DNA from: a virus
Direction: 5' to 3' (one strand)
Virus record (IMG/VR): IMGVR_UViG_3300027730_000821
Location: 1 to 64,000 of that record
Length of the DNA stretch: 64,000 bases
Shown piece after piece: positions 4,035 through 48,679 of the stretch. The notes under the pieces are model-generated. The model saw only the letters and a list, made by a program, of their open reading frames with translations. It was not told where the DNA came from and made no database searches. Every line of letters starts with the position of its first letter. The stretch's first letter is position 1. The position numbers were made by a program, and so were the translations under genes.

Positions 4035-4280
4035 ATGGAACATCCGTTTATAAATAATATCGGGGGCAAGTCACTTGAAGAACTTCAAGAAACTATGTCT
4101 GGTTTAACGAGCAAACTAACATTTGCGTATAGAACAGGCAACGGTCCCTTGATACATCAATTGCAGATGGCTCTTGAAAGCTACAAGAATCAGCACAGCA
4201 AGAAAATGGATGAGATTTTTGATAAACAAAAGCTAACTAACAAAATCAATATTCAGTCCGACAATGCACACAAGAATTGA
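4035..4280 (+). CDS. Small conserved phage protein, coiled-coil-like
   Basis: 81 aa, starting 3 nt after the stop of the virion gene and overlapping the next gene by 17 nt, so it is probably cotranscribed and coupled. The sequence contains LEELQETMSGLTSKLTFAYRTG and then a Lys/Gln-rich helix, suggesting a mostly helical protein. Similar short proteins occur in the structural region of T4-like phages, but I recognise no named family. No Shine-Dalgarno is obvious, which fits translational coupling. Confidence 0.55.
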   Translation: MEHPFINNIGGKSLEELQETMSGLTSKLTFAYRTGNGPLIHQLQMALESYKNQHSKKMDEIFDKQKLTNKINIQSDNAHKN

Positions 4281-4858: not shown

Positions 4859-5368
4859 ATGATTACCGACAAGTATGGACAGCAAATCTACACAGAACAA
4901 GATATATGTGACTATTATATGGTCAACAATGACGCACAGCTAAAGAACGTGCTAGTCTCAGACAAGATCACGTTCAGTCCTGAACTAAATCTAGAAAAAA
5001 TTCCAACTCTAATTCATCACATAGTCAACGAAGACTTGTCTGTCGAGGAATTCGATAACAGATGCAAAGAAAATTGGTATATTCCGAAAGAATATCTAGA
5101 ACTCGACATTGCTAAGTTTGTTTTGGATCAATGTAAGACCGAAGCAGAACTACAACGGGCAGGTGAAGAGTTGTTAATGTACCAAGAACGTGATATGTTT
5201 GTTCTTCTACAGTATTTGAAATACCTAGTCGATACTATGCGTAAGAACAATATCGTCTGGGGTGTAGGAAGAGGTTCTAGTGTCAGCAGTTTCGTGCTGT
5301 ATCTCATTGGGATTCATCGGATTGACTCGTTGTACTATGACCTGTCTATTAATGAGTTTTTAAAATAG
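4859..5368 (+). CDS. DnaE-like (DNA polymerase III alpha) fragment protein
   Basis: 169 aa. The C-terminal half matches the start of the DnaE palm: helix with ELLMYQERDMFVLLQYLKYL, then WGVGRGSSVSSFVLYLIGI and the segment IDSLYYDLSINEFL. This corresponds to the bacterial GRGSAAGSLVAYxLGIxxIDPLxYxLLFERFL motif. The protein stops just before the region that would carry the catalytic Asp residues, so it cannot be a polymerase by itself. Related stand-alone fragments occur in T4-like cyanophages. It may bind the primer-template, or compete for or recruit host replisome parts. That role is inference. Confidence 0.65.
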   Translation: MITDKYGQQIYTEQDICDYYMVNNDAQLKNVLVSDKITFSPELNLEKIPTLIHHIVNEDLSVEEFDNRCKENWYIPKEYLELDIAKFVLDQCKTEAELQRAGEELLMYQERDMFVLLQYLKYLVDTMRKNNIVWGVGRGSSVSSFVLYLIGIHRIDSLYYDLSINEFLK

Positions 5369-38343: not shown

Positions 38344-38720
38344 TGATCAAGACCGTCGTTGGTAATAGATATATAACGGTCGAGGGGGGGTCTCCGGGAG
38401 GAACTTACTTCACTCACTCGTCGAGTGCTTTGGGCGCGGGGAATGTGCGATGGAATACTAACTTTCAATGGTTTGAAGTATACGATGGTATATCTTGGAT
38501 ATCGATTGTGCAAGGGCATACTAGTGTGAGTCTAACTCCTGAAGCGGCGAATATCCTTGATTGGGCTAAGAAAAAGATGCATGAAGAAACTGAACTTGAT
38601 AGATTAGCAAAACACAATCCTACTATCGCTGGCTTAATCGAACAGAAAAAAAATCTTGATGACAAGATCAAGATGGTACAAATCTTAGTTAGAGAAGAGC
38701 CGAAATTTGGAACAAATTAA
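38343..38720 (+). CDS. Conserved phage protein
   Basis: 125 aa. A beta-rich N-terminus (NRYITVEGGSPGGTYFTHSS, NVRWNTNFQWFEVYDGISW) looks like a virion-type motif. It is followed by a helical C-terminus LTPEAANILDWAKKKMHEE and EQKKNLDDKIKMVQILV. Coupled to gp45 by a 1-nt overlap and to the DpdA gene by a 14-nt overlap. Proteins of this type recur in T4-like marine phages. The function is unknown. Confidence 0.55.
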   Translation: MIKTVVGNRYITVEGGSPGGTYFTHSSSALGAGNVRWNTNFQWFEVYDGISWISIVQGHTSVSLTPEAANILDWAKKKMHEETELDRLAKHNPTIAGLIEQKKNLDDKIKMVQILVREEPKFGTN

Positions 38721-40293
38721 TCTCTCGGCGTCACATGATCCAGAATGGGCCCTATTCTTACCTGCACTGAGTAGTTTCTTTATATCCGGATTGGGTAAAC
38801 AAGAAGTAGAAGGTAACTATTTTCCAACAGAAAGAGTCCCGAGTGGATTAAAAAACACTAATAGACTAAACTTTCTTGACGAAAAAAATGGCATTTTTAG
38901 TTATAAATGGGTACTATACAGCGCAGGACATGCTGATTTAGTAAATTATAAAACTAATCCCAACGAACATCTAGTTGTTAATAGAGACCGTAATAACACA
39001 TTTATGTTAGCAGACTCGGGAGGGTTTCAAATATTAAAGTGTCAGTGGCCCGCTGACTGGAAGAACCCTAGCTGTCCCCGTGCGATGAAGAAGCGCACAG
39101 AAGTTCTTAAGTGGATGGACGACAATGCTGACTATGGCATGTGTCTTGATATTCCATCACAGTCTCTTACGACTTATCACATTGAAGATCCAAAAACTCA
39201 GAAAAAAGACCCGGTAACTAAAAAGCCTATACCGGGTACGGGTATATCTATGCATGGCATTGCAACTATTCAAGATGCTATCACCGCTACCCATATCAAC
39301 AATGAGTATTTTGTTGCTAATCGTGACGGTCGTTGCAAGTTTCTAAACGTTCTACAGGGTCGCAATCATACTCAGTCAGACGTTTGGTATGAAGAGATGA
39401 AGAAGTACTGCGATACAACAGTGTACGGAGATCGTGCATTCAATGGTTGGGCATTCGGCGGCCAAAACAAGATCGATATCCACCTGATGCTCAAGCGTCT
39501 TGTTGGCATCATTCATGATGGTTATCTTGAAGAAGGTAAGCAGGACTTAGTTCACTGTCTTGGAACTTCGATTATGGAATATGCGGTATTGTTTACTGAT
39601 ATCCAGAAAGCAATACGTAAGTATCACAATCCTAAACTACAGATCACCTTTGACTGTGCTAGTCCGTTCTTTGCGGCTGCTAAGGGTCTTGCTTACAACA
39701 ACAATACGTTTGAGCATGATAAGAAATGGGCGTATGCAATGGAGAAGACTGCTGAAAACAAGAAGTATGCAACAGATACTCGCAAGTTCAGTGACGGTGT
39801 ATTAGCTGATGGTATTCATATGTTGTTTACTGACAGTCCGGTAACTGATCTATTAACTGTGAAAGACATTTGCTATCGCGGACAAGGATTCTTGGGTCAG
39901 CATGGCAAAGAGACCAAGACTAGTTGGGATACATTGAGTTATACATTGATTCAGGCTCACAACGTTTACCAGCATATGAGTGCTGTTCAAGAAGCTAATC
40001 GCAGGTATGAAACTGGGGTCAAACCTAAGATGGTTATGGATCCTCTCGGACACCTTAAATTTGCTGACATTGTTGATGAGATTTTTTCTCTGAAGGATCG
40101 TCAAAAAAGTCTTGACATGATCGACAATTATGATACATTTTGGCAGCAGATTAAAGCTGGTCAAGGTTTCTCAGGTAAGAAAACCGTCAACGCACAAACG
40201 ATGTTCAGTCAATTGTTCACTATAGAAGAGGAACCAGAGATCGAAGAAGTCGTTGAAGATAGCGACGATGCGATTTTGGAAGTACTAGATTGA
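38707..40293 (+). CDS. dpdA: DpdA-like DNA transglycosylase (TGT superfamily)
   Basis: 528 aa with a TTG start overlapping the previous gene. TGT-like barrel motifs are seen: FMLADSGGFQILK (D103), DNADYGMCLDIPS, FLNVLQGRNHTQ, FNGWAFGGQNKID and LQITFDCASPFFAAAKG. They match the tRNA-guanine transglycosylase fold, with both Asp sites plausible. Phage DpdA swaps guanine in DNA for a 7-deazaguanine such as preQ0. FolE, QueD and QueE encoded within 10 kb make the precursor, which supports a DNA rather than tRNA target. The modification would protect phage DNA from restriction. The C-terminal tail is acidic. Confidence 0.85.
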   Translation: MEQINLSASHDPEWALFLPALSSFFISGLGKQEVEGNYFPTERVPSGLKNTNRLNFLDEKNGIFSYKWVLYSAGHADLVNYKTNPNEHLVVNRDRNNTFMLADSGGFQILKCQWPADWKNPSCPRAMKKRTEVLKWMDDNADYGMCLDIPSQSLTTYHIEDPKTQKKDPVTKKPIPGTGISMHGIATIQDAITATHINNEYFVANRDGRCKFLNVLQGRNHTQSDVWYEEMKKYCDTTVYGDRAFNGWAFGGQNKIDIHLMLKRLVGIIHDGYLEEGKQDLVHCLGTSIMEYAVLFTDIQKAIRKYHNPKLQITFDCASPFFAAAKGLAYNNNTFEHDKKWAYAMEKTAENKKYATDTRKFSDGVLADGIHMLFTDSPVTDLLTVKDICYRGQGFLGQHGKETKTSWDTLSYTLIQAHNVYQHMSAVQEANRRYETGVKPKMVMDPLGHLKFADIVDEIFSLKDRQKSLDMIDNYDTFWQQIKAGQGFSGKKTVNAQTMFSQLFTIEEEPEIEEVVEDSDDAILEVLD

Positions 40294-40845: not shown

Positions 40846-41088
40846 ATGTCTAAGAGCCCAATTAAGTCTAATGCCGTCCGTGTTCGTCAGGTTTTTGATG
40901 ACCTTGATACTTATCGTACTTTCTGCCGAGATTTCGGTTATGGATTCGATGAGCGTGATCTATATAGTAATAAGAGCTATGTTTATCGGCAATATCAGAA
41001 ATTTATTGCTGGTAAGCCAGTGAAGAATCAATGGGAGATTGATTTAGCACGATTTAAAGAACAGGCGACAACCAGTCGTCGTGGATAA
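40846..41088 (+). CDS. Small conserved phage protein
   Basis: 80 aa, basic. VRQVFDDLDTYRTFCRDFGY, then GFDERDLYSNKSYVYRQYQK. It overlaps the next GTG start by 8 nt. No motif is recognised. Position suggests co-expression with the nucleotidylyltransferase-cupin gene. Confidence 0.55.
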   Translation: MSKSPIKSNAVRVRQVFDDLDTYRTFCRDFGYGFDERDLYSNKSYVYRQYQKFIAGKPVKNQWEIDLARFKEQATTSRRG

Positions 41089-41845
41089 AGTAGTTGTCAT
41101 CGTAACGGGAGGCTTCGATCCACTGCATAGCGGGCACTTGAGTTATATCAATGCAGCGCGTGCATTAGGTGACATTCTCGTTGTGGGAATTAACAGTGAT
41201 GAGTGGCTGATACGTAAGAAGGATCGGCCATTCATGTCACACCAAGAAAGATCGGCTATCATGGCAGCTTTACTAGGTGTAGATTATGTGTGGACATTCG
41301 ATGATACCGATGGTAGCGGAAAAGATGCTATTCGAATAGCAAGAAACATGTTTCCAAATTCGAAACTAATCTTTGCTAATGGAGGCGACCGTACTATCGA
41401 AAATATTCCTGAAATGGATATAGATGATGACAATATCGAATTTGTATTTGGTGTTGGCGGCAGTAACAAAGTCAATAGTTCAAGCCAGCTACTACACGAA
41501 TGGAAAGTGCCCAAAACAACTCGTAGCTGGGGATACTATCGAGTATTACACGAGCAGCACCCCGAAGTAAAACTCAAAGAACTTGTGATCGATCCAGGCA
41601 AATGTTTGAGTATGCAGCGGCATAAAAATAGGTCAGAACTGTGGTTTGTTGCAGAAGGAGTAGCTCTGCTAAAAAGCCTAGCTGATGTTACAACAGTACA
41701 CAAGCAGTTTGATATTATTCATATTCCCAAAGATAGTTGGCACCAACTATCAAATGCATCACCAGATGTTCCATTAAAGATCATCGAGATTCAATATGGC
41801 ACAGAATGCAACGAAGAAGACATAGAGAGAAAACACAATGCGTAA
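41081..41845 (+). CDS. Cytidylyltransferase-like domain fused to a cupin (sugar isomerase-like)
   Basis: 254 aa with a GTG start. Residues 1-130: VVIVTGGFDPLHSGHLSYIN, the HxGH motif of TagD/HldE-type cytidylyltransferases, with VGINSDEWLIRKKDRPFM. Residues about 150-245: a mannose-6-phosphate isomerase-type cupin with GKCLSMQRHKNRSELWFVAE and FDIIHIPKDSWHQLSNAS, the His-rich metal-site pattern. The two domains could activate and isomerise a sugar phosphate for the adjacent glycosyltransferases. The end overlaps the next gene by 8 nt. Confidence 0.75.
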   Translation: MDKVVVIVTGGFDPLHSGHLSYINAARALGDILVVGINSDEWLIRKKDRPFMSHQERSAIMAALLGVDYVWTFDDTDGSGKDAIRIARNMFPNSKLIFANGGDRTIENIPEMDIDDDNIEFVFGVGGSNKVNSSSQLLHEWKVPKTTRSWGYYRVLHEQHPEVKLKELVIDPGKCLSMQRHKNRSELWFVAEGVALLKSLADVTTVHKQFDIIHIPKDSWHQLSNASPDVPLKIIEIQYGTECNEEDIERKHNA

Positions 41846-44172: not shown

Positions 44173-44853
44173 ATGTCTTTTAATAAAAATAAATGTGACC
44201 CCGAATTGGGTCGTCTCGTCCATGAACATCTTGTAAAGATGGGGGTTGAAACTCCCACTATCGAAAACAATCTCAGCAGAACCGACAAAATTGAGATCAT
44301 TGAACGCAAGTTTAAGGATATCATGGAAACCTTAGGGCTTGACCTAAGTGATGATAGTCTTATTGAAACTCCCAAGCGTGTTGCCAAAATGTATGTAGGT
44401 GAAATCTTTTGGGGCCTCGACTACGAAGCATTTCCCAAGTGTACTACAGTTGACAACAAGATGAACTACGATGAAATGGTAGTAGAGCGTAACATTATTG
44501 TTATGAGTAACTGTGAACATCATTTTGTCCAAATTGACGGTCTTGCTACTGTTGCGTATGTACCCAACGAAAAGGTTCTTGGTCTATCCAAGATCAATCG
44601 TATTGTTGAATATTTCAGCAAGCGGCCACAGATTCAGGAGCGTTTGACTGAACAGGTATTTCACACTCTTTGCTACATTCTTGAAACCGAAGATGTTGCA
44701 GTCATGATTGATGCCCAGCACTATTGTGTTAAGTCGCGCGGTGTAGAAGATACAGGGTCAAGCACAGTAACGTGTAAGCTGGGCGGCGGATTCAAGTCTG
44801 ACCCTGCTGCTCGTGCAGAGTTTCTTAGTATCGCTCGCATGAGTAAGTGCTAA
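44173..44853 (+). CDS. folE: GTP cyclohydrolase I
   Basis: 226 aa, close to E. coli FolE. VIVMSNCEHHFVQIDGLATV-type zinc site (Cys, His, His), then GLSKINRIVEYFSKRPQIQE and LTEQVFHTL, and a second Cys in DAQHYCVKSRGVED. It opens GTP to 7,8-dihydroneopterin triphosphate, the first step to 7-deazaguanine. QueD and QueE follow within 4 kb and DpdA lies upstream. Regulation could involve the structured leader. Confidence 0.92.
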   Translation: MSFNKNKCDPELGRLVHEHLVKMGVETPTIENNLSRTDKIEIIERKFKDIMETLGLDLSDDSLIETPKRVAKMYVGEIFWGLDYEAFPKCTTVDNKMNYDEMVVERNIIVMSNCEHHFVQIDGLATVAYVPNEKVLGLSKINRIVEYFSKRPQIQERLTEQVFHTLCYILETEDVAVMIDAQHYCVKSRGVEDTGSSTVTCKLGGGFKSDPAARAEFLSIARMSKC

Positions 44854-45085: not shown

Positions 45086-45126
45086 AGCGGTCTTGGCGTC
45101 ATTCCCGCTTGACAAATTCTGCCGCC
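45086..45126 (+). ncRNA. H-type pseudoknot, copy 1
   Basis: S1 AGCGG (45086-45090)/CCGCT (45105-45109); L1 TCTT; S2 GGCG (45095-45098)/CGCC (45123-45126); L2 TCATTC; 13-nt L3 ending ATTCTGC. Copy 2 at 45306 has identical L1, L2 and L3 length with changed but still paired stems. Confidence 0.7.
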
Positions 45127-45137
45127 TATGTTATGCT
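45109..45137 (+). promoter_or_regulatory. Sigma70-like promoter overlapping pseudoknot copy 1
   Basis: TTGACA (45109-45114), 17-nt spacer, TATGCT (45132-45137). It starts within the pseudoknot, so a transcript from it would lack the first pseudoknot but include copy 2. Confidence 0.6.
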
Positions 45138-45155
45138 AATATAGGAGATTAAAAT

Positions 45156-45304
45156 ATGGCAAATCAACCAGGCAACTATTATCAAATATGCTCGGAGAAG
45201 GATATCAGGATCATGGTCTTGATCTAAATCAGATTTATAATGCAGAAGGCTTTTGTGAAGTTGAGGATATCCTCAACTACATCAATCGTCGGTATGCTTA
45301 TTAA
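45156..45304 (+). pseudogene. Small gene with apparent frameshift
   Basis: The ATG at 45156, with Shine-Dalgarno taggag, encodes MANQPGNYYQI and then stops at 45227. A second frame from 45188 encodes MLGEGYQDHGLDLNQIYNAE then GFCEVEDILNYINRRYAY to 45304. Removing two bases (at) near 45186 joins them into one smooth 48-residue protein. It is either a recent frameshift, a sequence error or a recoded gene. The product is unknown. Confidence 0.5.
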
Positions 45305-45305
45305 C

Positions 45306-45350
45306 AGTGGTCTTTGACACTCATTCCCACTATAAACATTCTGCGTGTCA
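45306..45350 (+). ncRNA. H-type pseudoknot, copy 2, in queD leader
   Basis: S1 AGTGG (45306-45310)/CCACT (45327-45331); L1 TCTT; S2 TGACAC (45315-45320)/GTGTCA (45345-45350); L2 TCATTC; 13-nt L3 ending ATTCTGC. The queD Shine-Dalgarno AAAGGAG (45354-45360) begins 4 nt after S2, so pseudoknot folding could block ribosome entry. The topology is like preQ1-I riboswitches, but loop sequences differ. Confidence 0.75.
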
Positions 45351-45367
45351 TCTAAAGGAGAAAAAAG

Positions 45368-45847
45368 ATGACAAAAAAATATGTATCAACTAAAGAATAT
45401 TCACACCTTGCGCCTCTGGCGTATCGGCAATGGCGAGCGGATAGTCACTGTCGTTTAATACACGGCTATGCATTGTCTTTCAAATTTGAATTTGAATGCG
45501 ATGACCTTGACGCCCGAAATTGGTGTTTTGATTACGGTGGGCTCCGGCCACTTAAGGATTTCCTAGAAGATAATTTTGACCACGTATTACTTTTAGCCCA
45601 AGATGATCCATACTATGATACCATTAAGCAACTAGGAGAATTAGGATTGGCAAAGATAATTGAGGTTGAAAAGACCGGATGCGAGGGACTTGCAGATTAC
45701 CTGTATGAATATGTGAATACTATTTTCCTTCCATCCTGCGGCGAGGCAGAGGCTGCAAGAGTTTGGTGTGCGAAAGTAGAAGTGAGAGAAACCCCATCAA
45801 ACATGGCATACAGGCAAGGCCATAGAGAAGACGGCGAGTTTCTATAA
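45368..45847 (+). CDS. queD: QueD, 6-carboxytetrahydropterin synthase
   Basis: 159 aa. RADSHCRLIHGYALSFKFEF carries the Cys and the HGY zinc motif. DLDARNWCFDYGGLRPLKDF, LEDNFDHVLLLAQDD and ARVWCAKVEVRETPSNMAY match the PTPS/QueD fold, with the catalytic His and Glu. It converts dihydroneopterin triphosphate to 6-carboxytetrahydropterin, the second step after FolE. It is preceded by the second of two tandem pseudoknots. An antisense GIY-YIG gene follows. Confidence 0.9.
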   Translation: MTKKYVSTKEYSHLAPLAYRQWRADSHCRLIHGYALSFKFEFECDDLDARNWCFDYGGLRPLKDFLEDNFDHVLLLAQDDPYYDTIKQLGELGLAKIIEVEKTGCEGLADYLYEYVNTIFLPSCGEAEAARVWCAKVEVRETPSNMAYRQGHREDGEFL

Positions 45848-45866: not shown

Positions 45867-46565
45867 TTATTTATTTCCCGCTATTTTGCATTTATTTCCA
45901 TGCCATCTTTTATAATTTCCAGCATTAAGTCCTGACTTGCCGCAATATTCACACGAACGATTCTTTTGGTTTAGCTTATTTGCCAATGATTTATTTAAAG
46001 AATATTGTTTCTTTCTGGCCTCTGAGATTTTTGTTAAAATTTCAGGGGTCAGTATAGCACCAAATCTAGGATTGTTCTCTCCTTGCGAATGCTTTGTTCG
46101 GACGAACGTTTCTTTTCGTTTTAAATTTGCTGCATCCGATTGCATCAGGTTAACGAATCTATCTACCATAAATTTCCGAAATTCCGGATCCTCTTCCATG
46201 TGCCTCCGCCTACTTTTGTGACTATTCTTCCATGAAGAATCCGAGTAGTTGTCTGTTAAAATTGCTTTACTATCGGATTTATTAAGCCAATCTTCCTTAT
46301 ACACCGCCTTTACTCTTTTTATGTAAGTATGCTCATATAATCTACATTCTGCTGCTGTAGTAAAAGTACGATGAATAACAACTATATCTGGAGGCCCGTA
46401 CTTTTGCCAATGTTCATTGACACTAACTGACGATGTAGTATATCGACCGGTCAGTATGTTCTCTGGGTTAGCTTTTTTGCCGTACTGACAGCCATAATAT
46501 TTGGTATTGGTGCCTCGCCACATAATAAAGTAAGTATAGGGTGTAAAGACAGAATAAATAGACAT
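45867..46565 (-). CDS. GIY-YIG homing endonuclease (Seg-like)
   Basis: 232 aa. The N-terminal YTYFIMWRGTNTKYYGCQYG corresponds to the GIY..YIG strands, with GRYTTSSVSVNEHWQKYGPP and a later Glu (CRLYEHTYIKR). The middle is a basic helical linker with HSQGENNPRFG. The C-terminus has a CEYCG...W-H...C zinc finger. Seg-type enzymes nick intergenic targets and spread by repair. It is antisense between queD and the phosphoribosyltransferase gene. The structured late leader at 46563-46633 controls it. Confidence 0.78.
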   Translation of the reverse strand: MSIYSVFTPYTYFIMWRGTNTKYYGCQYGKKANPENILTGRYTTSSVSVNEHWQKYGPPDIVVIHRTFTTAAECRLYEHTYIKRVKAVYKEDWLNKSDSKAILTDNYSDSSWKNSHKSRRRHMEEDPEFRKFMVDRFVNLMQSDAANLKRKETFVRTKHSQGENNPRFGAILTPEILTKISEARKKQYSLNKSLANKLNQKNRSCEYCGKSGLNAGNYKRWHGNKCKIAGNK

Positions 46566-47678: not shown

Positions 47679-47844
47679 TAAAATTGTGAATTATATAGAT
47701 GCTAAGAATGGTAGGCATTTGTATTCTATTCCTTTCTACGATCCAGATAACTTATATGAAGGTTGGATTTACAAATCGGGCGACAAATATAAGACATATG
47801 AAGAATATCTAAAAGAACGAGACAATGACGCAAATCAAGATTAG
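47671..47844 (+). CDS. Small phage protein
   Basis: 57 aa: MHNKIVNYIDAKNGRHLYSI, FYDPDNLYEGWIYKSGDKY and an acidic helix. It overlaps the glycosylase end by 8 nt and the queE start by 20 nt, which fits a coupled phage operon. No family is recognised. Confidence 0.5.
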   Translation: MHNKIVNYIDAKNGRHLYSIPFYDPDNLYEGWIYKSGDKYKTYEEYLKERDNDANQD

Positions 47845-48679
47845 TGAACTATTTTATTCTATTCAGGGTGAAGGCAGGTATCAAGGCGTACCTAGCATTT
47901 TCCTAAGAACGTTTGGCTGCAACTTCACGTGTGGAGGATTTGGTATGCCTAAGGGAGAAACGTCTGTTGAACGGAAAAAGATCGACCCGAAAGTTTACAA
48001 AGATTACAATTCTCTCCCACTCGTCACCACTGGTTGCGATTCTTACGCCTCATGGGACCCTCGATTTAAGCATCTTTCTCCTAGTAAGGACATTGATACC
48101 ATTGTTGATGACATCATGGAACTACTACCGTTTAAAGAATGGAAAAACGAACATCTTGTCATCACAGGAGGAGAACCACTACTTGGATGGCAGCGAGCTT
48201 TCCCAAAACTCTTGAGTCATCCTAAGATGGCGGGTCTCAAAGAGATTACTTTTGAGACTAATGGTACACAGGAACTTTCACCTGAGTTCGCACACTATCT
48301 TGAAGACTGGAGCTGGCCAGAAGTATATCCGGGATTTGAACGAGAAATCACTTTTAGCGTCAGTCCTAAGTTAAGTTGTTCCGGTGAGTCTCATAAGAGT
48401 GCGATCAAACCTAAGGTTGTGCGTGAATATGAGAAATTTGGCTATGCATACCTCAAGTTTGTGATCTCTACAGAAGAAGATGCTCAGGAAGCACTTGAAG
48501 TATCTAAGCTATATCGTGATGAGGGTTTTGAGGGGCCTGTATATTTCATGCCCGTCGGTGGAGTAGAGAGTGTATATCAATTGAATAACCTTACAGTTGC
48601 CGAGTTAGCAATGAAGTATGGTGTCAGATATAGTGATCGACTACATCTACCTTTGTTTGGTAACCGCTGGGGAACGTAA
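47825..48679 (+). CDS. queE: QueE, 7-carboxy-7-deazaguanine synthase (radical SAM)
   Basis: 284 aa. SELFYSIQGEGRYQGVPSIF is the QueE start. The radical SAM Cys residues are C32, C36 and C71, i.e. C-x3-C-x34-C: an insertion with GMPKGETSVERKKIDPKVYK separates the second and third Cys, which are normally two residues apart. VITGGEPLLGWQ, FETNGTQ and ITFSVSPKLS (GGE and SxxPK motifs) are intact. It forms CDG from 6-carboxytetrahydropterin. QueC, the next enzyme, is not in this window. Confidence 0.9.
   Translation: MTQIKISELFYSIQGEGRYQGVPSIFLRTFGCNFTCGGFGMPKGETSVERKKIDPKVYKDYNSLPLVTTGCDSYASWDPRFKHLSPSKDIDTIVDDIMELLPFKEWKNEHLVITGGEPLLGWQRAFPKLLSHPKMAGLKEITFETNGTQELSPEFAHYLEDWSWPEVYPGFEREITFSVSPKLSCSGESHKSAIKPKVVREYEKFGYAYLKFVISTEEDAQEALEVSKLYRDEGFEGPVYFMPVGGVESVYQLNNLTVAELAMKYGVRYSDRLHLPLFGNRWGT

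Follow-up and report, generated by a model that had tools for sequence, protein, structure and literature searches.

The closest described counterpart of the element reported here is the preQ1-I riboswitch, an H-type pseudoknot with a 5-bp first helix, an A-rich L3 and a conserved cytidine 5' of the 3' strand of helix 1 (PMC10622847). THF-II is a leader RNA of folate/pterin metabolism in Gram-negative bacteria (PMC9881143). Riboswitches have been described as rare in phages; a glutamine riboswitch occurs in methylophage Melnitz and pelagiphages, and a putative riboswitch lies at cyanophage psbA (PMC9004378). Modified guanines shield phage DNA from restriction enzymes (PMC6884629).

The locus analysed here lies in a window of 64,000 nt, part of the 72.5-kb IMG/VR virus contig IMGVR_UViG_3300027730_000821. 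The initial annotation had placed two tandem H-type pseudoknots upstream of queD and suggested a new or variant riboswitch. Both pseudoknots were recovered where it had put them, at 45086-45126 (copy 1) and 45306-45350 (copy 2), with stem and loop sequences exactly as quoted there, and copy 2 is directly 5' of queD. The parts are as follows (S1' and S2' denote the 3' arms of S1 and S2).

45086 to 45090, + strand: copy 1, 5' arm of S1, AGCGG (partner 45105-45109)
45091 to 45094, + strand: copy 1, L1, UCUU, in which positions 2-3 (CU) never vary across the family
45095 to 45101, + strand: copy 1, 5' arm of S2, GGCG, then U (U-C mismatch), then CA (partner 45120-45126)
45102 to 45104, + strand: copy 1, L2, UUC, whose last base is the invariant C adjoining S1'
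45105 to 45109, + strand: copy 1, 3' arm of S1, CCGCT
45110 to 45119, + strand: copy 1, L3, UGACAAAUUC, whose A3, A5 and A7 never vary across the family
45120 to 45126, + strand: copy 1, 3' arm of S2, UG, then C (mismatch), then CGCC
45125 to 45145, + strand: copy 1, alternative hairpin CCUAUGUU/AAUAUAGG, overlapping S2' and the Shine-Dalgarno AGGAG (45143-45147)
45109 to 45137, + strand: sigma-70-like promoter within copy 1, TTGACA-17-TATGCT (weak -10), where most relatives of its subtype have TTTACA-17-TGCTATAAT
45156 to 45227, + strand: truncated queD start (MANQPGNYYQ...) 3' of copy 1, recombined onto the tail of another ORF
45306 to 45310, + strand: copy 2, 5' arm of S1, AGTGG (partner 45327-45331)
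45311 to 45314, + strand: copy 2, L1, UCUU
45315 to 45323, + strand: copy 2, 5' arm of S2, UGACAC, then U (mismatch), then CA (partner 45342-45350)
45324 to 45326, + strand: copy 2, L2, UUC
45327 to 45331, + strand: copy 2, 3' arm of S1, CCACT
45332 to 45341, + strand: copy 2, L3, AUAAACAUUC
45342 to 45350, + strand: copy 2, 3' arm of S2, UG, then C (mismatch), then GUGUCA
45346 to 45373, + strand: copy 2, alternative hairpin UGUCAUCU (45346-45353) / AGAUGACA (45366-45373), present in the minimum-free-energy fold
45368 to 45847, + strand: queD, 159 aa, 6-pyruvoyl/6-carboxy-tetrahydropterin synthase family (PF01242, E=6e-15)

The encoded QueD scores under the cut-off of the TIGR03367 model. Nearby are folE (44173-44853) and a QueE-like gene (47825-48679, phrog_2076); the QueC and TGT Pfam models found no match in the 72.5-kb record, which is possibly a fragment. 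The textbook QueD motif is CxxxHGH; the phage QueD proteins, including that of the window, all carry SHC/SNC...HGY, and a changed zinc site is possible on the strength of this difference. A homing-endonuclease-like ORF (45867-46565, - strand; phrog_655, phrog_27406) lies just 3' of queD. Further upstream, a 528-aa ORF (38707-40293, + strand) has no Pfam, PHROG or NCBIfam match and is 33.6% identical to hypothetical proteins from jumbo phages of the PA5oct type, which have a folE as well; it could be a divergent DpdA-type transglycosylase. The ORF at 41081-41845 (+ strand) fuses a cytidylyltransferase-like domain to a mannose-6-phosphate-isomerase C-terminal/cupin domain and adjoins a glycosyltransferase-like gene.

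The core pattern shared by the two leaders, GGTCTT-N-TCATTCCC, occurs twice in the window, compared with 0.01 occurrences expected by chance, and a pattern and covariance-model search of the 72.5-kb record found no third copy. The history of the pair could be read from related loci. In L238, an intact queD lies 3' of a leader that hardly differs from copy 1, and in L156 and L227 an ORF ending ...SNYYQYLLQEGYQDHGLELNQIYNAEGFSEVEDTLDYINRRYAY stands before a copy-2-like leader. In the window, MANQP comes next after copy 1, and after it the tail of the ORF seen in L156 and L227 (GNYYQ...EGYQDHG...INRRYAY, partly in another frame). The junction thus suggests that a cassette of leader 2 and its queD displaced the resident queD and stranded leader 1, so that copy 2 is, from this arrangement, the putative working leader and copy 1 a recombination leftover. 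The 'tandem' arrangement is a recombination scar, with copy 1 stranded before a queD remnant, and not a trait of the family; a tandem riboswitch is not supported, given the recombination junction behind copy 1. A pair of leaders, both no more than 1.3 kb from queD, was found in the window, in its own population (L010 and L076) and otherwise only in L264, among the matches listed. L240 and L384 have decayed extra copies, in L240 a second leader whose queD has decayed and in L384 a partial match of 26 nt. In L264, the leader at 4903-4945 precedes queD, and that at 4110-4152 precedes a 236-aa methyltransferase-like ORF (weak PF13649) and has a broken Shine-Dalgarno hairpin.

Relatives were collected from IMG/VR by motif-only scans, using three L1 variants and two L1-independent patterns, and by two further scans for QueD relatives that used protein only. 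The family comprises at least 284 instances, at least 141 unique cores and at least 269 loci, and all of those listed are uncultured phage contigs. A queD-type protein, recognised by S[HN]C...HGY, is encoded no more than 1.3 kb downstream of 273 of the 284 instances among the matches listed, which upholds the reading of the element as a leader of queD. Four of the other 11 run off the contig end, five are decayed or interrupted queD loci (L066, L240, L318, L378 and L381; three of the five by ORFs that, by eye, resemble homing endonucleases) and two are chance matches. Loci selected by RNA motif alone had queD next in 195 of 205 cases among the matches listed; queD loci selected by protein alone carried the leader in 53 of 80, and at least three more carried variants without one C. 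Homologues near a queuosine gene were thus found, and the initial annotation could not have known how much stronger the link to a 7-deazaguanine gene would prove. When 1.29 Mb of sequence flanking the leaders was searched with a covariance model, no second gene class emerged; 104 matches scored at least 39 bits, one partial match 19.3, and the rest 12.9 or less. In 257 Gb of prokaryote genomes, the commonest L1 variant gave nine pattern matches, none with both the structure and queD, and the leader is absent from all seven QueD loci examined in GenBank phages (e.g. Xanthomonas X1, Acidovorax ACP17 and Pseudomonas Iggy). No published description of the element was found in the literature searched, which lay mostly outside subscription journals. 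Homing-endonuclease-like ORFs lie 3' of the leader in L066, L161, L318 and L378; those of L066, L161 and L318 are mutually related (MYYLMIKEIEQTG..KYLCKRKQYKD...), and the ORF sits between leader and queD in L161 and splits queD at its SHCNLIHG motif in L066.

Across 54 diverse members, 94.4% of alignment cells pair, with a covariation score of 0.545 compared with 0.143 after shuffling and no more than 0.123 once the 3' partners had been slid by 1-3 columns; in 23 members whose alignment is ungapped, pairing is 100% and covariation 0.542, against no more than 0.182 in controls. Covariation is strong in both helices and flat in the slid controls, so the stems proposed from two copies are conserved in homologues. 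S2 shows as many as six pair types per position, and about 8% of its cells are unpaired in the diverse alignment. L2 position 3 and L3 position 11 are A-U in 116 unique cores and G-C in 25, with zero exceptions, which indicates that S2 extends by two more pairs beyond an invariant U-C mismatch. This L2-L3 pairing had escaped the initial annotation; its stem pairing and its L1 (UCUU) stand, but L2 and L3 are shorter than it had given, since 'UCA' of L2 pairs with 'UG(C)' of L3. The fold thus consists of a 5-bp S1, an S2 of 4-6 bp plus the mismatch and two pairs, and free loops of 2-3 nt (L2, ending in C) and 10 nt (L3). C2 and U3 of L1 and A3, A5 and A7 of L3, positions left free by the search patterns, are invariant in all 59 QueD-selected cores. 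The C before S1' is invariant as well; it is partly imposed by the search patterns, as are the GG/CC of S1 and the TC[C/T]GC end of L3, and it is also present in QueD-selected loci read without a pattern. Taken together, the leader is very probably a functional RNA pseudoknot.

Comparison with the known classes was made by cmscan of the window and eight divergent loci against Rfam, which gave no match at gathering or permissive thresholds (E up to 10 and 5), preQ1-I, preQ1-II, preQ1-III, SAM-II and SAM-V included. The likeness to preQ1-I (RF00522) is that of a similar-sized H-type pseudoknot in the order P1-L1-P2-L2-P1'-L3-P2', associated with a queuosine-pathway gene, with a 5-bp helix 1, an A-rich L3 and a cytidine directly 5' of the S1 3' strand (invariant in the queD leader, although partly pattern-imposed). 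However, the first L1 base is U in 27, A in 17 and C in 15 of the 59 QueD-selected cores, whereas preQ1-I has a conserved ligand-contacting U; this comparison rests on alignment at L1 position 1, and L1 position 3 of the queD leader is an invariant U. Where preQ1-I has a conserved ligand-contacting L3 adenine near P2', the queD leader has the invariant A3, A5 and A7, but an invariant C before the extended S2'. Helix 2 is longer and bears the U-C mismatch, and the leader precedes queD, in phages only among the loci found. Finally, the ligand-stabilised P2 of preQ1-I sequesters the Shine-Dalgarno or favours a terminator (OFF), whereas S2' of the queD leader is predicted to pair with the Shine-Dalgarno or AUG in an alternative state only. 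The topology proposed earlier is that of preQ1-I; membership in that class is not borne out. Because the first L1 base is unconserved, the sign of the platform appears opposite and no covariance model matches, we would not file the leader as preQ1-I, although it may act in a similar way, with that cytidine binding a guanine-like face. PreQ1-II, preQ1-III, SAM-II and SAM-V resemble it as pseudoknotted cis-regulators, the preQ1 classes on the same pathway, and differ in that none matches it at permissive E-values. THF-II is likewise a leader RNA in pterin-related metabolism, and a pterin ligand is possible for the queD leader; it differs in the missing Rfam match and in that the queD leader is a single H-type pseudoknot. 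The Melnitz/pelagiphage and psbA cases are similar in being riboswitch-type control carried by phages, although the glutamine class also occurs in bacteria, whereas the queD leader was found only in phages.

The 3' arm of S2 has a second possible partner, the Shine-Dalgarno or the start codon, to which it is complementary through several unrelated sequence solutions. In the commonest subtype, S2' continues into CCTATG, complementary to CATAGG across the Shine-Dalgarno; in a second, S2' ACACUCC lies opposite GGAGU; in a third, S2' (e.g. GUGUCAUCU, AUGUCAU or AUGCCAUC) pairs with the start-codon region (AGAUGACA, AUGACAU or GAUGGCA), a pairing retained through G-U pairs with GTG (L352) and TTG (L137) starts. 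Copy 2 is an example of the last arrangement; its minimum-free-energy fold combines S1 with the UGUCAUCU/AGAUGACA hairpin, in which AUG 45368-45370 is part of the stem and the loop holds the Shine-Dalgarno. When downstream regions were swapped with those of other subtypes, mean pairing energy went from -8.4 to -5.0 kcal/mol for the start-codon and other types and from -8.0 to -5.4 kcal/mol for the commonest subtype. For the ACACUCC subtype the difference was weak (-6.8 vs -5.7 kcal/mol, with many individual p values of 0.05-0.3); its alternative helix is only modestly above swapped or shuffled controls because GGAG finds a partner in every stretch of CUCC. Overlap of the alternative helix with S2' amounts to 1 nt or more in 130 of 132 cores, and to 2 nt or more in 93%.

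Since one strand closes both the pseudoknot and the hairpin that would inhibit translation, the most economical interpretation is that the knot is ON and the hairpin OFF. We reasoned that a cis-acting RNA switch controls translation of the phage queD, in which the formed pseudoknot would leave the ribosome-binding site free, and in its absence the released S2' strand would close a hairpin over the Shine-Dalgarno or AUG; from the sequence comparisons, this competing-helix mechanism is the probable one. An OFF switch of the preQ1-I kind, in which the end product stabilises the pseudoknot and so blocks the adjacent ribosome-binding site, would follow the feedback repression usual for biosynthetic genes; S2' of copy 2 ends 4 nt before the Shine-Dalgarno, and the base that gives preQ1-I its specificity has a counterpart in the invariant C before S1' (PMC10622847). 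Yet the Shine-Dalgarno of the commonest subtype is some 15-20 nt past S2' and clear of the knot, and in an OFF switch S2' would gain nothing from its conserved ability to pair with the Shine-Dalgarno or AUG, which makes an OFF switch quite unlikely.

The subtypes also differ in their promoters. In the ACACUCC subtype, TTGACA-like and TANNNT boxes end 6-10 nt before S1 in 11 of 16 distinct upstream regions, compared with 0.8% of shuffled ones; with sigma-70-like boxes just 5' of S1, the RNA would start with the pseudoknot. In the commonest subtype such a promoter just before S1 was found in only 1 of 53, and nearly all members carry a promoter-like TTTACA/TTGACA-17-TGCTATAAT over L3 and the hairpin loop. 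The internal consensus TTTACA-17-TGCTATAAT is of the extended -10 type (e.g. L003 5793-5821), and similar promoters are found elsewhere in the same contigs. Transcripts from the internal promoter would be without the pseudoknot; covariation within this subtype indicates that the knot is still kept, so that read-through transcripts may carry it. The near-universal internal promoter of this subtype might suggest that the conserved element is DNA, with -35/-10 elements and protein half-sites. However, the stems vary freely yet stay complementary in interleaved (pseudoknot) order, which a protein operator does not need, and other subtypes have no internal promoter, several having one upstream instead; a DNA promoter/operator is highly improbable, and an operator-only model is contradicted by the covariation. 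The leader of the commonest subtype is often close behind an upstream stop codon, and both states are plain base-paired structures; these observations would suit a ligand-free RNA element that gives a fixed or translation-coupled level of queD (e.g. when opened by ribosomes that terminate on the upstream gene, or by temperature). Such an element leaves the invariant loop residues unexplained, and the RNA of one subtype appears to begin at S1, with no upstream translation, so that we consider it unlikely.

In the competing-helix model, the invariant loop bases may form a small-molecule pocket that stabilises the pseudoknot, and the invariant cytidine before S1' would read the ligand. The ligand would most plausibly be a queD-pathway pterin or 7-deazaguanine, such as the QueD substrate dihydroneopterin triphosphate; that it is a pathway metabolite is a possibility we put forward tentatively. 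The same invariant unpaired bases would also fit recognition by a protein, and the tight linkage to queD, with no other pathway gene, would suit a translational operator at which QueD or another phage protein sets the balance between knot and hairpin (autoregulation) with no small molecule. Nevertheless, the QueD proteins 3' of the leader are diverse (37-66% identity to that of the window) while the loop bases are invariant, and an L3 as compact as A-N-A-N-A is what one typically finds in small-molecule pseudoknots; a protein operator is fairly unlikely.

At the sequence level, the family combines the two features of a cis-regulatory RNA switch, a conserved aptamer-like fold and a mutually exclusive expression platform, and the 'new or variant riboswitch' of the initial annotation remains the best single reading of the putative queD switch, with preQ0 and preQ1 as conjectural ligands. 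A bolder form of this reading, which may be right but is put forward tentatively, is a new phage-specific class in which a preQ1-I-like pseudoknot, acting with the opposite sign, turns translation ON in response to a pterin or 7-deazaguanine and so channels dihydroneopterin triphosphate into the modification of DNA bases. The queD leader is a real, conserved, phage-specific RNA switch candidate, one that recurs across hundreds of phage contigs and keeps to a single gene of a modified-guanine pathway. If metabolite sensing is true, it would represent a riboswitch class evolved or kept by phages only, and would offer a handle on how phages time the modification of their DNA.
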